This document shows positions 52,622 through 57,836 of a stretch of 64,000 bases of DNA, in pieces. Made by a program: the position numbers and the translations under genes. The notes beneath the pieces are model-generated. The model ran no database searches and was not told where the DNA came from. It worked only from the letters and a program-made list of their open reading frames with translations. Origin of the DNA: Planotetraspora mira (GTDB lineage Bacteria > Actinomycetota > Actinomycetes > Streptosporangiales > Streptosporangiaceae); assembly GCF_016863275.1 (NCBI RefSeq), contig NZ_BOOO01000041.1:62001-126000 (forward strand). The letters are read 5' to 3'. Numbering within the stretch: the first letter of the stretch is position 1; each line of letters opens with the position of its first letter.

Positions 52622-54211
52622 ATGTCCGGCAGGCAGCACAGGGAGACGGAGATCGCCCGTCAGGTCCGGGCTCGCGGCCTGGCGGCCGGGCGTGACCTGG
52701 CTCTGATCGCCGACGAGATCCACGAGGTGTGCGGACCGCAGTTCGGCACCACGAAGATCAAGTCGCATCGTCTCTCGAACGGCATCGCCCTCGCCGATGT
52801 GATCGAACAGGTGCGAGCCCTGTTCGAGAGGGACGGCAAGCCCGTTCCCGGCATCGGTGAGACTCTTCTGTCCGCGTACGAGTCGGGCATGAAGAGGCCT
52901 GGCCCCGAGTATCTTCACTACCTGTGTTCGGTCTACCGGGTCGAGCCGGCCGCCTTGGGATTCGAAGGTCCCTGCATCTGCGGCCATGCCCACCTGGCGC
53001 CCGGCGGTCCCGGTGGTGGGGACTCGAAAGAAGAACGACCCGACACTTCCCCCGGGCTGCGTCAGCTGCTGGTCTCTTCGGACAGCGGTTGCCCTCCCAC
53101 CGACGGGGGCGAGGAGGACGAGAACGTGCTACGCAGGACGCTGTTGAAGCTTCTCGCCGGCAGTGCTGGTGTCACTGCCGGCGTCGGCATGGACAGCCAG
53201 TTGCTCGGCGCGGTGGACAACGTCCGGCGGAAGATGGACGACACCATGGTGTCGGCCACCGTTTCCCCGGCGATGCTCGACCAGTGGGAGCAGTCCACCA
53301 CCGGCTTCGGTCGGCAATATATGAACACCCCGCCCCTACGGCTCCTCTGCGACGTCCTGCTGGAGTTCTCCACGGTCCGCAAGGCCATGGAGCGCCGCCA
53401 GCCCGTCGACGTGCAGGAACGACTGTGCCGGATGGCCGCCCAGCTCTCCGGGCTGTGCGGGATGATCATGATCGACCTCGGCGACCACCGCCTGGCCCGC
53501 TCGTTCTTCCGTACCGGGCGCACCGCTGCCGACGAGACCGGCGACCGCGCGCTCCGCGCCTGGGTCACCGCTCGTGAGGCGCTGGTGCCGCTCTACTACG
53601 GCGACCCGCGCGAGGCGCTGTCGCTGGCGAAGAAGAGCCGCGACATGGCGGGGCACACTCCCTGTGCGGCCAGGACGATGGCACCCGTCGTCGAGGCCAG
53701 GGCCCTGGCGATGCTGGCGGGCTCCAACGGGTCCCGGCAGGACGTGGTGGAGCAGGCCAAGCGGGCGCTGCACCGGGCCAGACAGGCTTTCTCCCAGATG
53801 AGCGCGGACGACCAGGAGGACGCGGCCTTCGGGTACACCGAGCGCCAGCTCTACTTCTACCAGGGCGACGTCCTGGTGAAGCTGGGCCAGACGCTGGAGG
53901 CCGACGTGGTCCTGGAACAGGCGCTGGGAAAGTATTCGGGCGAGGATCTTCTCGACCAGACGCTCATCCGGTTCGACCGCGCGATGTGCCGCTTCATCGA
54001 GGGCGACATCGAGGAGGCGCTGCACATGGCCAGTCAGGCCGTCGAGGCCTTCGCTCCCGACGACATCCCCCAACTGGCCATGCGACCGGCCGCTGATCTG
54101 ATCAAGGCCATCCAGGCCAAGCACGGCGACCTGCCGCAACTGCGGGCCTTCCGTGACAGTCTCATGCCGGGGGAGTCCAACCCGTCGGCACCCGGCGTCG
54201 ACGTCCTGTAA
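52622..54211 (+). CDS. XRE-type helix-turn-helix regulator with TPR repeats
   Basis: The 529-residue protein has an N-terminal DNA-binding part (residues ~20-115; ETLLSAYESGMKRPGPEYLH, LCSVYRVEPAALGF), a Gly/Ser/Asp-rich linker with several Cys (CICGHAH), and a hydrophobic segment VLRRTLLKLLAGSAGVTAG near 171-190. A long alpha-helical TPR-like region follows (LARSFFRTGRTAADETGDRA, FYQGDVLVKLGQTLEADVVL). HTH plus TPR is the plan of peptide-responsive regulators (RRNPP type) and of actinomycete developmental regulators. Three genes follow on the same strand, including a 24-codon gene, so it may respond to a peptide. Confidence 0.82.
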   Translation: MSGRQHRETEIARQVRARGLAAGRDLALIADEIHEVCGPQFGTTKIKSHRLSNGIALADVIEQVRALFERDGKPVPGIGETLLSAYESGMKRPGPEYLHYLCSVYRVEPAALGFEGPCICGHAHLAPGGPGGGDSKEERPDTSPGLRQLLVSSDSGCPPTDGGEEDENVLRRTLLKLLAGSAGVTAGVGMDSQLLGAVDNVRRKMDDTMVSATVSPAMLDQWEQSTTGFGRQYMNTPPLRLLCDVLLEFSTVRKAMERRQPVDVQERLCRMAAQLSGLCGMIMIDLGDHRLARSFFRTGRTAADETGDRALRAWVTAREALVPLYYGDPREALSLAKKSRDMAGHTPCAARTMAPVVEARALAMLAGSNGSRQDVVEQAKRALHRARQAFSQMSADDQEDAAFGYTERQLYFYQGDVLVKLGQTLEADVVLEQALGKYSGEDLLDQTLIRFDRAMCRFIEGDIEEALHMASQAVEAFAPDDIPQLAMRPAADLIKAIQAKHGDLPQLRAFRDSLMPGESNPSAPGVDVL

Positions 54212-54233: not shown

Positions 54234-54737
54234 ATGGTGGCGGTCCTGAAGATCCGGCAGTACCGCTGGTCCGATCTCGACGCGGTCTGGACGCTGCATC
54301 AGATCGGCCTGGCCCAGGTGGGTCTCCTGCCGGGGGACGGCGTCTACTACGACGACGACTTCCCGAGGATCAGTGAGGTCTACCTGGCCGATCGCGGCGA
54401 CTTCCTCATCGGCGAGGTGGCCGGCTCAGGAATCGTCGCGATGGGGGGCCTGCGCCGGGTCGACGACCAGACGGCGGAGATGTGCAGGCTTCGGGTGCAT
54501 CCGGAGTACCAGCGCCGGGGCTTCGGCGCCCAGATCATGGAGGCGCTGGAGCAGCGGGCCGGTCAACTCGGCTACACACTGCTGCGCGGTGACACCACTC
54601 TGCAACAGGTCGCAGCTCTGGAGCTCTACCGCAAGTCGGGCTGGCGTGAGCTCCGCAGGGAGGCCCGAGGCGACACCGTGGTGCTTTATGGCGAAAAGCG
54701 ACTCAATGCCGAGGTTTCGCGACTTTTCACCCGATAG
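54234..54737 (+). CDS. GNAT-family N-acetyltransferase
   Basis: ATG 54234 gives 167 aa. The acetyl-CoA loop is RVHPEYQRRGFGAQIMEALE, followed by LRGDTTLQQVAALELYRKSG with the conserved AxxLYxKxGW ending. It lies 22 bp after the TPR regulator and 80 bp before the 24-codon gene, so it may belong to the same transcription unit. Its substrate could be the small peptide or an unrelated amine; nothing in the sequence decides. Confidence 0.87.
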   Translation: MVAVLKIRQYRWSDLDAVWTLHQIGLAQVGLLPGDGVYYDDDFPRISEVYLADRGDFLIGEVAGSGIVAMGGLRRVDDQTAEMCRLRVHPEYQRRGFGAQIMEALEQRAGQLGYTLLRGDTTLQQVAALELYRKSGWRELRREARGDTVVLYGEKRLNAEVSRLFTR

Positions 54738-54817
54738 AGAATGCCTTTGAGGCCTTGGCGGATCGCTGATTTGTACTAATACTTGTGCCTTATCCGTTAA
54801 ACGGGGAAAGAGGCATA

Positions 54818-54892
54818 ATGAAGAAGATCATTGTCCGCAAGCCCGGCACGATGAAGCTCACAGGAACATCGAGCGTCATCCACAAGGGGTGA
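54818..54892 (+). CDS. 24-aa cationic peptide gene coupled to a TPR protein
   Basis: ATG 54818 follows the strong ribosome binding site AAAGAGG five bases upstream. It encodes 24 residues beginning MKKIIVRKPGTMKLT and ending SSVIHKG, basic throughout and without a transmembrane helix. The TGA (54890-54892) overlaps the GTG start (54889) of the TPR gene, so both are translationally coupled. The size, ribosome binding site and coupling mark it as a real gene: a precursor, signalling or leader peptide. Too short to compare by eye with known families; no Cys, so not a thioether precursor. Confidence 0.7.
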   Translation: MKKIIVRKPGTMKLTGTSSVIHKG

Positions 54893-56895
54893 AGGAGAAC
54901 CTTCGCCACATCTGGGTTCGGGGGAACCTCTCCCGCGATCGCGTGGCGGCGCTCCGCTCTCTGGAGTTGCCCGCCCTCCTGACGCCCGTGATCAACGGGC
55001 ATCGACGGCTGCGCGGTCCGTACTCGGTCGGCAGCGTCATTTTGCGCGAGCTCGTACCGGTCGCATTGGAGCGTTCCCCTGACCTGGTGGCACGACACGA
55101 CATCGAGATCCGCGCCGCCGCACCTGATCTGCGGCACCTGGTGCCCCTACGGCGGGAGCCCATCGAGGCCCGCCTGCCGGAGAACGAGCGGATCCTCGTG
55201 CCGGCCCCGCGCCGGACGTTGCGCATCGCCAATGGACTCGCCGAGTTCATCCGCGACTGCCTGCCCGGCCCGCGCTCACTGGTCGTGGACAACCTGCATC
55301 AGGCTGATCCCACCGACCGCGAGTTGCTGACCGTGCTGGCGCGCCGGGTGGGTCGGCTCACCCTCGCGGTGGGCTCCCCGGAGCGACCGTTCAGCGGGTC
55401 AGGCGAACCGGTCGTCGTCGACGCCGTAGCCCAGGAGGGCGACACCGGCGGCTCACCCGAGGACTACGTGAGGTCCGACGGCACCTCCGACGACTCCCCG
55501 GCCTATCAGGCGTATCTCGCCCTCTCCCCGGACGAGCGGGCGAACCTGCATGATCGGCGGGCCGTCGAGCTGACCGGCGAGTTCGCGCTGGGTGCCGTGC
55601 CGTACCACCTGGAGCACGGCAGTGACCCCGAGGCCGCGGTGCGGGCCTTGTGGGAGGCCGTGGACCACTGCATCACCGAGGGGTTCCTGGACGCCGTCGC
55701 CGAACTGGGCCCGCGCGGCCTGCGCCTCGCCGAGAGCGGCTCCGATCTCTGGTGGCGGTTCACGCAGCGCACGGCGACCGCGCTGGGCGGACTGGGCCGC
55801 CGTGACCGGGCCCTGGACCTCTACGAGCAGGCACGGCGCGAGAGCATGGATCCGGTCGTCCACGCGGCCTCCGCGTACGGCACGGCCATGCTGGACGCCC
55901 GCCATCCGGACCCGGAGAAGCGGGATCTGGGCCGGGCCACCGGCTGGATCAACGAGGCTGTGGCGATCTCCACACTGCTGCCCGACCGGAGTGAACGGGC
56001 CTTCAAGCTCGGGTTCGACCAGAACGGCCGTGCGCTGATCGAGCTCCGGCAGGGCCGGGTCGCGTCCGCTCTCCACCTCGTGGAGTCGGCGATCGACCTC
56101 GCTGAGCGCGACCTGCCCGAGGGCGTGCACCCGGTGCATCGCATGGTTCTGTTCGCCAACCGCGCCCAGTTGCTCGCGCGGACCGGCCGGGCCAAGGACG
56201 CGCTGCGTGATCTCGACCGGGCCATCGCCATCGATCCCTGTTTCCCCGACCACTACCTCGACCGGGGCAACCTGCTGCTGGAGCTCGGTCGCCCGGACGA
56301 CGCGCTGGCCGACTACGAGACCGCGATGCGGGTGAGCCCGCCCCTGCCCGAGGCGTACTACAACCGGGCCGAGCTGCGCCTGGCGGCCGGCGATCTGGAG
56401 TCGGCCAGGGCCGACCTCGATCACGTGCTGGAGCTGGATCCGGGCTACCTCAACGCATATGTGAACCGCGCCGGGATCCTGGAGATGCTGGGCGAGCACG
56501 ACGCGGCTCGCGAGGACGTGGCGGCGGGACTGGCCCTCGACCCCGGGAACGCCCACCTGCACGGCGTCCTCGGCCAGCTGGAGACGGCGGCGGGCCGGTT
56601 CGCGGACGCCGGGAAGGCGTTCGACGCGGCGGTGGAGGCCGATCCCGGCCTGGCGTCGGCCTGGGCCAACCGGGCCATTCTGCGTTACGAGAGCGGGGAC
56701 GCCGCCGGCGCCGTCGACGATCTCACCCGGGCGATCGAGCTGGGGGACGACCCCGCGCTCTACTTCAACCGGGCCACCGCCCTGGACGCCCTGGGACGTG
56801 CGGAGGAGGCCGGGCTCGACCTGCGCCGGGCCTGCGATCTCGCGCCTGACGACCCCGACATCCGGGAGGCGCTCGAACGGCACGTGGCCGGCTGA
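54889..56895 (+). CDS. TPR protein with degenerate STAND/AAA-like N-terminal domain
   Basis: The 668-residue protein begins MKENLRHIWVRGNLSRDRVA. Residues 1-190 look like the ATPase part of a STAND/LuxR-type protein: HRRLRGPYSVGSVILRELVP, RTLRIANGLAEFIRDCLPGP, and a Walker-B-like SLVVDNLHQADPTDRELLTV. But no Walker A (GxxxxGK[ST]) is present, so it is probably a pseudo-ATPase. Residues 420-660 hold about seven TPR repeats (DALRDLDRAIAIDPCFPDHY, DDALADYETAMRVSPPLPEA and similar). TPRs bind peptides; the coupled 24-aa peptide is the obvious candidate ligand. Confidence 0.8.
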   Translation: MKENLRHIWVRGNLSRDRVAALRSLELPALLTPVINGHRRLRGPYSVGSVILRELVPVALERSPDLVARHDIEIRAAAPDLRHLVPLRREPIEARLPENERILVPAPRRTLRIANGLAEFIRDCLPGPRSLVVDNLHQADPTDRELLTVLARRVGRLTLAVGSPERPFSGSGEPVVVDAVAQEGDTGGSPEDYVRSDGTSDDSPAYQAYLALSPDERANLHDRRAVELTGEFALGAVPYHLEHGSDPEAAVRALWEAVDHCITEGFLDAVAELGPRGLRLAESGSDLWWRFTQRTATALGGLGRRDRALDLYEQARRESMDPVVHAASAYGTAMLDARHPDPEKRDLGRATGWINEAVAISTLLPDRSERAFKLGFDQNGRALIELRQGRVASALHLVESAIDLAERDLPEGVHPVHRMVLFANRAQLLARTGRAKDALRDLDRAIAIDPCFPDHYLDRGNLLLELGRPDDALADYETAMRVSPPLPEAYYNRAELRLAAGDLESARADLDHVLELDPGYLNAYVNRAGILEMLGEHDAAREDVAAGLALDPGNAHLHGVLGQLETAAGRFADAGKAFDAAVEADPGLASAWANRAILRYESGDAAGAVDDLTRAIELGDDPALYFNRATALDALGRAEEAGLDLRRACDLAPDDPDIREALERHVAG

Positions 56896-56987: not shown

Positions 56988-57836
56988 ATGAGTGCTGAGT
57001 ATGTGCTGACCCTGTCCTGCCCGGACCGTCCCGGAGTGGTCGCCGCCGTCTCCGGGATCCTGGCGGGGCATGACTGCAATATCACCGAGAGCCAGCAGTT
57101 CGGCGACCCGATCGCGCAGCGCTTCTTCATGCGCGTGCAGTTCGTCAGCGGGCTGGGGCTCGACGAGCTCCGTACGGCTTTCGCCGTGCTCATTCCGGAG
57201 TTCAGCATGGAGCTCCAGCTGTTCGACCGGGCGGTGAAGACGCGGGCGCTCGTGCTGGTCAGCAAGTTCGACCACTGTCTCAACGATCTTCTTTACCGGG
57301 TGCGCTCCGGCCTGCTGGCCGTCGACATCGTCGGCGTGGCCTCCAACCACCCCGACCTGCGGCCGCTGACCCAGTCGTACGGCGTCGACTACCACCACCT
57401 CCCGGTCACGCCCGACACCCGGGCGAAGCAGGAGGCCGAGATCCTCACCCTGGTCGACCACTACCAGGCCGACGTGGTCGTGCTCGCCCGCTACATGCAG
57501 GTGCTGTCCGACGACGTGTGCGCGAAGCTCGCCGGGCGGATGATCAACATCCACCACTCGTTCCTGCCGTCGTTCAAGGGCGCCAAGCCGTACCACCAGG
57601 CGCATTCGCGCGGAGTCAAGCTGATCGGCGCGACCGCGCACTATGTGACCACGGACCTCGACGAGGGGCCGATCATCGAGCAGGAGGTCGCCCGGGTGAA
57701 CCACACGCATTCCCCGGACGACCTGGTCGCGATGGGCCGTGACGTCGAGAGCCGGGCCCTGGCCCGGGCCGTCGGCTGGCACGCGGAGCACCGCGTGCTG
57801 CTCGACGGCCACAAGACGGTCATCTTCCCGCGCTGA
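56988..57836 (+). CDS. purU: Formyltetrahydrofolate deformylase
   Basis: The 282-residue protein has an N-terminal ACT domain (VLTLSCPDRPGVVAAVSGIL, GHDCNITESQQFGDP) and a C-terminal formyltransferase-type domain: VVLARYMQVLSDDVCAKLAG, INIHHSFLPSFKGAKPYHQA, GATAHYVTTDLDEGPIIEQE, with catalytic His in IHHSFLP and Asp in TDLDEGPI. It releases formate from 10-formyl-THF for purine synthesis and folate balance. Its stop is overlapped by 17 bp by the convergent peptidase gene. Confidence 0.95.
   Translation: MSAEYVLTLSCPDRPGVVAAVSGILAGHDCNITESQQFGDPIAQRFFMRVQFVSGLGLDELRTAFAVLIPEFSMELQLFDRAVKTRALVLVSKFDHCLNDLLYRVRSGLLAVDIVGVASNHPDLRPLTQSYGVDYHHLPVTPDTRAKQEAEILTLVDHYQADVVVLARYMQVLSDDVCAKLAGRMINIHHSFLPSFKGAKPYHQAHSRGVKLIGATAHYVTTDLDEGPIIEQEVARVNHTHSPDDLVAMGRDVESRALARAVGWHAEHRVLLDGHKTVIFPR

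Follow-up and report, generated by a model that had tools for sequence, protein, structure and literature searches.

Does a reading frame of only 24 codons, placed directly in front of a gene for a tetratricopeptide repeat (TPR) protein, encode a real peptide, and if it does, what could this peptide be doing with its partner? The question is raised by two overlapping genes in Planotetraspora mira (genome G000, 9.03 Mb), which are located in the window, i.e. the whole 64,000-nucleotide stretch of DNA that was analysed. Our preferred reading, to which we give a probability of about 0.57 from sequence comparison, is that the frame encodes a real and functional 24-residue peptide with the TPR protein as its partner, that the pair represents a 'domesticated' branch, without an M50 protease, of a larger peptide family, and that the peptide would serve as an intracellular ligand or small subunit of a pseudo-STAND protein.

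The peptide gene and its TPR partner

The peptide gene (MKKIIVRKPGTMKLTGTSSVIHKG, type 1 in what follows) is on the forward strand at 54818..54892, starting with the ATG at 54818 and ending with the TGA at 54890-54892. A purine-rich, Shine-Dalgarno-like GGGGAAAGAGG (54803..54813, forward strand) can be read from the sequence 4 nt upstream of this ATG, and a similar stretch is found in relatives (Planotetraspora, Microbispora and Herbidospora). The TGA overlaps the GTG start codon of the TPR gene (54889-54891) in a shared GTGA (54889..54892, forward strand). The same 4-nt overlap was found in all 45 type-1 loci, type 1 being defined for this count and for the residue 7 counts below as a peptide ending in HKG with a TPR gene downstream; all of these TPR genes start with GTG, and the bases beyond the overlap vary. 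The original prediction had described a 24-codon gene with a strong ribosome binding site and a TGA that runs into the GTG start of the gene for a 668-aa TPR protein. This description was accurate, including its coordinates, and the 45 loci bear out its expectation that the same pair would be found with a conserved overlap in other actinomycetes. Coupled translation would deliver the peptide and the TPR protein together in the window genome.

The encoded peptide was rightly predicted to be cationic and free of cysteine, as it has no acidic residue and carries five lysines plus Arg7 and His22, with a net charge of about +6 calculated from the sequence. Its C-terminus is SVIHKG. No hydrophobic signal segment could be seen by eye, and Pfam and NCBIfam scans of the peptide gave no family match.

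The TPR gene (54889..56895, forward strand) encodes a 668-aa protein that matches Pfam TPR_2 (E=1.4e-33) and, weakly, AAA_16 over residues 79-156. The N-terminal part (54889..55623, forward strand, about residues 1-245) is a degenerate STAND/AAA-like domain with a Walker-B-like LVVDNLHQAD (55279..55308, forward strand, residues 131-140) but without a Walker A, as had been noted from the sequence earlier. The residues A139, D140, D143 and E145 are invariant among 20 aligned members. A Walker A motif (GxxxxGK[ST]) was found in 0 of 68 TPR family members when the first 330 residues were scanned, which rules out its retention in some member of this set. The weakly matched, AAA/STAND-like N-terminal domain and the absence of Walker A support the earlier proposal of descent from a STAND-like ATPase, and we refer to the TPR protein as pseudo-STAND in this sense. 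The remainder of the protein (55624..56892, forward strand, about residues 246-668) is predicted to form a TPR superhelix with a net charge of -28 and an Asn at the ladder position in several repeats. Among its nearest structures are peptide-binding TPRs, OGT and YrrB for example, though the fold by itself is no proof of peptide binding. PDB sequence searches with the N-terminal domain, and with the M50 profile described below, returned nothing useful. No HTH was detected in the 668-aa protein by Pfam or NCBIfam scans, and no DNA-binding domain was found in it.

The pair is in a conserved neighbourhood. Upstream are genes for an NsdA-family TPR regulator (52622..54211, forward strand; NCBIfam NF053720, E=7e-44) and a GNAT acetyltransferase (54234..54737, forward strand), both of which are 5' of the pair in all 26 type-1 loci compared for synteny. 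Downstream is a gene with ACT plus formyltransferase domains (56988..57836, forward strand), which we take to be a formyltetrahydrofolate deformylase (PurU)-like gene. It is 3' of the pair in 25 of the 26 loci and was not seen in the 12 kb that cover the remaining one (L028). The NsdA-family regulator is a conserved neighbour, and its membership of the pair is only putative.

Conservation of the peptide frame

In the named-genome scan for TPR loci, a peptide was present 5' of the TPR gene in all 27 loci, and in 26 of them the same small frame overlaps the TPR gene. In the 27th, from Paractinoplanes (L032, TPR identity 44%), a related peptide lies farther upstream with a protease gene in between. 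The frame is under coding selection, with a mean dN of 0.082 and a mean dS of 0.659 (dN/dS about 0.12) among 23 distinct peptide DNA sequences; in the same set, 7, 8 and 18 of 22 columns are variable at codon positions 1, 2 and 3, respectively. On the two strands of the loci of 27 relatives, 5,521 calls of small ORFs (18-60 aa) were made. A peptide HMM, which had some of the peptides from these loci among its seeds, gave 10 bits or more only to calls that share 27 stop codons, with a single such stop in each locus, and the best small ORF outside these reached 8.3 bits.

Of 345 genomes from the order, 149 carry both the peptide and the TPR gene, 10 the TPR gene only, 0 the peptide only and 186 neither; these counts span related genomes, and the cut-offs were E<=0.01 for the peptide, picked after viewing the list, and E<=1e-30 for the TPR protein. 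Six of the ten TPR-only genomes were opened (G012, G032, G230, G251, G258 and G266), and all six have a divergent peptide upstream. For a sample of 394 genomes of the class, TPR gene (E<=1e-20) and peptide (E<=1e-3) were both present in the same 19, the peptide cut-off again being set after viewing the list, with the next weaker match (0.003) in a TPR-less genome.

When loci were fetched by their TPR or M50 gene and not by the peptide, a peptide was found upstream in 27/27, 30/30 and 25/25, sets that share genomes. The peptide itself had been the query for L033-L062 and L063-L082, and these loci were not counted for the rule that a TPR gene implies a peptide. Removing rows with identical 400 bases from the TPR start reduced 172 TPR loci to 108, and a search of the same strand up to 2,300 nt upstream found the peptide in 105 of these. 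The three misses (L069, L071 and L080) are Nonomuraea-like copies, in which the peptide is on the strand opposite the TPR gene and none lies within 2.3 kb upstream. The peptides of these copies are 27-29 aa long with an altered tail; by eye, an MFS-type gene is near L069 and L071, and a transposase-like frame directly follows the L080 peptide.

For L201-L215, the TPR start filter missed five loci, of which L202, L203, L205 and L208 have a peptide by eye and L213 has none. Among the other ten, the peptide is present in nine, and the sequence of L211 ends short of the peptide place. The original prediction had named a small frame missing or broken beside a kept TPR gene in close relatives as evidence against the pair. 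For the most part this was not seen, as all 27 loci of the named-genome scan have the peptide, and the case against it is L213, at the type-2 place (see below) of G090, where no peptide is visible. The only frameshifted type-1 peptide seen (L066/L234, G210) adjoins a remnant of the TPR gene. Both partners are decayed at this type-1 place, and G210 retains a type-2 pair (L206).

A chance small frame has nothing in its favour beyond its shortness and is contradicted by conservation, selection and co-occurrence. It was rejected on the 45/45 overlap, the dN/dS of about 0.12, the 149/10/0 co-occurrence and the specificity of the HMM, and we consider its probability negligible. From these comparisons, the observation of the pair is confirmed.

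Related peptides and the M50 protease clusters

The peptide family has the N-terminus MKKIxVRKxGxVRLT. The window peptide carries the family signature MKKI-x-[VI]-[RH]-K-x-G-x-x-x-L, scores 51 bits against the family HMM, which was seeded with it, and is followed by a homologous pseudo-STAND TPR gene. The peptide-profile search of the 345 genomes also gave many second matches, most of them to the first 18-20 residues only. When 20 of the weaker matches were opened, a second peptide type of 24 aa was recognised (e.g. MKKVIVHKPGTVALSGAASPKHVG), the TPR gene of which is a paralogue with 44-56% identity. In most of 28 type-2 loci, a GC-rich hairpin is predicted by eye after the peptide and before the TPR gene, which could be a leaky terminator or an attenuator. 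The hairpins of L063-L081 and L201-L215 differ in sequence.

Other family members are longer and have variable ends (AACSIYKNVS, SAAQPLYVCYQ, TTAASCYCHGILA, STATPLYATTCIK, SATCSCPYPQAN and AMACYCYGCCCCGGRAAI). In the clusters that carry an M50 gene, the ends are often rich in Cys and Tyr, resembling those of a RiPP precursor, and the gene order is peptide, membrane protein of roughly 400 aa, TPR protein. An M50-type motif (HExxHxLxxRxxG) is present in 44 of 45 membrane-protein loci, some of which are the same gene counted twice. A search with the M50 protein returned 30 loci, 25 of which adjoin a TPR gene, and all 25 of these have a peptide upstream. The other five (L146-L150) are more distant M50 homologues (34-38%) without this TPR gene and probably belong to other peptide systems. 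The middle gene had no convincing Pfam or NCBIfam match, with Peptidase_M50 reaching E=0.066 in one of six members, and an NCBIfam scan of three precursor peptides gave no family. The N-terminus of the M50 protein looks PqqD-like, as a profile comparison of two six-sequence alignments gave a probability of 86 and E 4.6e-6, and one distant member (L246, G341) passes the Pfam PqqD cut-off (32.1 against 23.4 bits). PqqD has the fold of the RiPP recognition elements.

These clusters occur in the same taxonomic order as the window genome, in Paractinoplanes, in three further genomes of the class and on one Streptomyces plasmid. On this linear plasmid of Streptomyces sp. NBC_01450 (L238), the trio (precursor-like, M50 and TPR) is amid transposases, its first two products being annotated merely as hypothetical and the third as a tetratricopeptide repeat protein, and the trio may thus be mobile.

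Profile searches of G000 found a PqqD-M50 gene neither at the window pair nor at any other place: relatives of the M50 protein were absent at E<=1e-8, and so was a PqqD domain at E<=0.001. With no such M50 relative and no hydrophobic signal segment visible by eye, a secreted signal finds no support here. Of the original prediction, the pair, the tight coupling and the STAND-like origin stood, and the kinship with the M50/PqqD clusters and the evidence for action in trans from orphan peptides, described below, had been missed.

In a midpoint-rooted tree of the TPR proteins, with the type-1 rows thinned to 24 of 44, a branch with an SH-aLRT of 94 separates 31 M50-linked rows from the M50-less rows. 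On the M50-less side, type 1 and type 2 form sub-groups, with some long rows being unsure; L089 is labelled type 2 by its spacing though its peptide is type 1. We infer that the M50 gene was lost rather than gained on the branch of the window.

Orphan peptides, residue 7 and a proposed role of the peptide

In ten genomes (loci L220-L227, L077 and L082), the type-1 place has kept the peptide and both of its upstream neighbours, NsdA-type and GNAT, with no TPR match left there at E<=1e-5. Nine of these ten orphan peptides have the usual 24 residues. The orphan peptide of L224 (G205) has lost its stop and has a 6-residue extension with an altered end. Residue 7 is His in all ten orphans, compared with Arg in 43 of the 45 TPR-paired type-1 peptides (the exceptions being His in L013 and Cys in L029), and His is also the residue in 25 of 27 type-2 peptides of 24 aa (exceptions L076, Y7, and L204, R7). 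The 32 rows binned as M50 include one H7, L209, which was binned by distance alone (peptide 1.6 kb upstream) and is probably not M50-linked. All ten orphan genomes, including G205, G309 and G312, carry a type-2 pair with an H7 peptide elsewhere.

The TPR gene was probably lost more than once, as in an NsdA tree of 23 rows the orphan state needs four changes, at least three of which are forced by well-supported branches; four of the 27 loci (L009, L021, L024 and L236) were left out of this tree, the gene being missed by the motif. The R7 rows L028, L228 and L229, which keep the TPR gene, lie among the orphans. As the orphans are from related genomes, their H7 represents three or four events instead of ten, and part of the pattern could be due to drift or common descent. 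It may be that the orphan peptides have come to act on the type-2 TPR protein alongside the peptide already paired with it, with residue 7 helping to determine which peptide fits, and what a second peptide would do on the same TPR protein is a guess. Comparison of TPR columns between R7 and H7 rows, with only seven M50-linked full-length proteins, gave candidates and no clear contact site.

Retention of the peptide at loci without the TPR gene, with H7 as in type 2, fits a peptide that acts in trans on some TPR protein better than it fits a simple leader. On our preferred reading, the window pair would be the M50-less, 'domesticated' branch of a RiPP-like family that has a leader-type peptide, a PqqD-like M50 protease and a TPR protein. 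The basic peptide (about +6) would be made, would stay in the cell and most likely bind the acidic superhelix (-28), and the bound peptide, as ligand or small subunit, would set the state of the pseudo-STAND protein. A broader version, which we hold more tentatively and place somewhat short of even odds, is that natural-product-like clusters of MKKI leader peptide, PqqD-M50 protease and pseudo-STAND TPR receptor, present across actinomycetes, are the source of a branch passed on vertically, where the former precursor has turned into a constant intracellular TPR ligand and residue 7 is part of a code pairing each peptide with its TPR type.

The main rival, though an unlikely one, is that the peptide is still a RiPP precursor, which enzymes from other loci would modify, cleave and possibly export, while the TPR protein would serve as a scaffold, immunity or control factor. 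The window peptide shares its leader-like N-terminus with the M50-cluster precursors, and hairpins after most type-2 peptide genes recall the leaky terminators behind precursor genes. M50 proteases do mature RiPPs such as the epipeptide, according to a review (PMC10885120). However, the G000 genome has neither an M50 relative nor a PqqD domain at the cut-offs given above, and the type-1 C-terminus is nearly invariant where a variable one would suit a RiPP. No known RiPP tailoring enzyme is among the conserved neighbours (NsdA-type regulator, GNAT and PurU), although the GNAT could in principle modify the peptide.

We consider it less probable still that the peptide has no role of its own and that translation of the small frame, as a cis-acting leader, controls the translation or transcription of the TPR gene. 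The GTGA overlap in 45/45 loci, the hairpin predicted in the peptide-TPR spacer of most type-2 loci, and the invariant residues beside the stop, which could act on the ribosome, are all in keeping with such a leader. The type-2 peptide that orphan genomes also carry slightly strengthens it and slightly weakens our preferred reading. A purely cis-acting leader is nevertheless hard to reconcile with a peptide that persists in ten loci without a TPR gene (albeit with an altered end in L224). In 31 rows of the TPR tree, the M50 gene separates the peptide from the TPR gene, residue 7 tracks the TPR type, and dN/dS is low across the whole peptide. Very improbable is a -1 slip at GGGGTGA that would make the peptide the N-terminal end of the TPR protein. 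The TPR frame is indeed the -1 frame and GGG TGA is kept in 45/45 type-1 loci, but the GGG is already imposed by the Gly codon plus the GTG start, no full slippery heptamer could be seen by eye, the overlap is missing in 22 of 28 type-2 loci and in the M50 loci, and the orphan peptides have no adjacent TPR gene.

A short peptide with a TPR partner, and RiPP-like ancestry, are things of an already known kind. In RRNPP systems (Rgg, PlcR, PrgX and NprR), a short peptide and a TPR protein are encoded together as in the window; these systems have an N-terminal HTH or Rap domain, a C-terminal TPR that binds the peptide and a peptide export signal. Unlike these, the window TPR protein lacks an HTH match and has a STAND-like N-terminal domain, and nothing in the window peptide resembles an export signal. 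STAND proteins with repeat sensors (MalT and 6mfv) have an AAA/STAND-like core followed by TPR-type repeats, a layout that the window protein, with its weak Pfam AAA_16 match, may share; the window family differs by the missing Walker A (68/68), the lack of a DNA-binding domain and the dedicated peptide gene. A small peptide and a TPR protein are also found in the actinomycete FxSxx-COOH (Fxs) systems, which are defined by a peptide ending in FxSxx and the radical SAM protein FxsB, whereas the window peptide ends in SVIHKG, with no radical SAM gene among the neighbours read and no such NCBIfam match.

M50-protease RiPPs, namely the epipeptide (EpeX/EpeP) and 3-thiaglutamate (TglA/TglG) systems, resemble the related clusters in having a short precursor and a membrane M50 protease, and are unlike the window locus, where neither an M50 gene nor any known tailoring enzyme was seen. 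Neither TPR nor tetratricopeptide is used as a word in the main text of the M50/RiPP review (PMC10885120), and a term search of PMC6511847 and PMC7794033 gave no TPR, M50 or MKKI-type string. No description of the trio or of the peptide strings was found in the literature searched, which left out most subscription journals. The closest relatives of the window pair are therefore the precursor/PqqD-M50/TPR clusters themselves, with the same N-terminal peptide signature and a homologous TPR protein; the window pair is unlike them in its lack of an M50 gene and its constant C-terminus.

If our preferred reading is true, these peptides would form an actinomycete small-peptide family without a model in Pfam and NCBIfam (window peptide) or NCBIfam (three precursors), and would show a route from a RiPP-like precursor to a regulatory peptide. 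The TPR gene, lost several times while the peptide changed to match, would offer a natural experiment, and the three-gene cluster type (precursor, PqqD-M50 and TPR) with its varied, Cys/Tyr-rich cores could be used for natural-product mining. By eye, the M50 clusters L109-L111 and L162 have a SARP-type regulator near one end, and downstream of the TPR gene is an old-yellow-enzyme gene in L109-L111 and a flavin-reductase-domain gene in L162, L163 and L166. In Paractinoplanes (L161, G698:C64), the trio is directly preceded by YcaO, TfuA and cobalamin-type radical SAM genes, beside which there are three nitrile-hydratase-leader-like precursor genes (also by eye), and this arrangement could be either an adjacent cluster or a single hybrid cluster.
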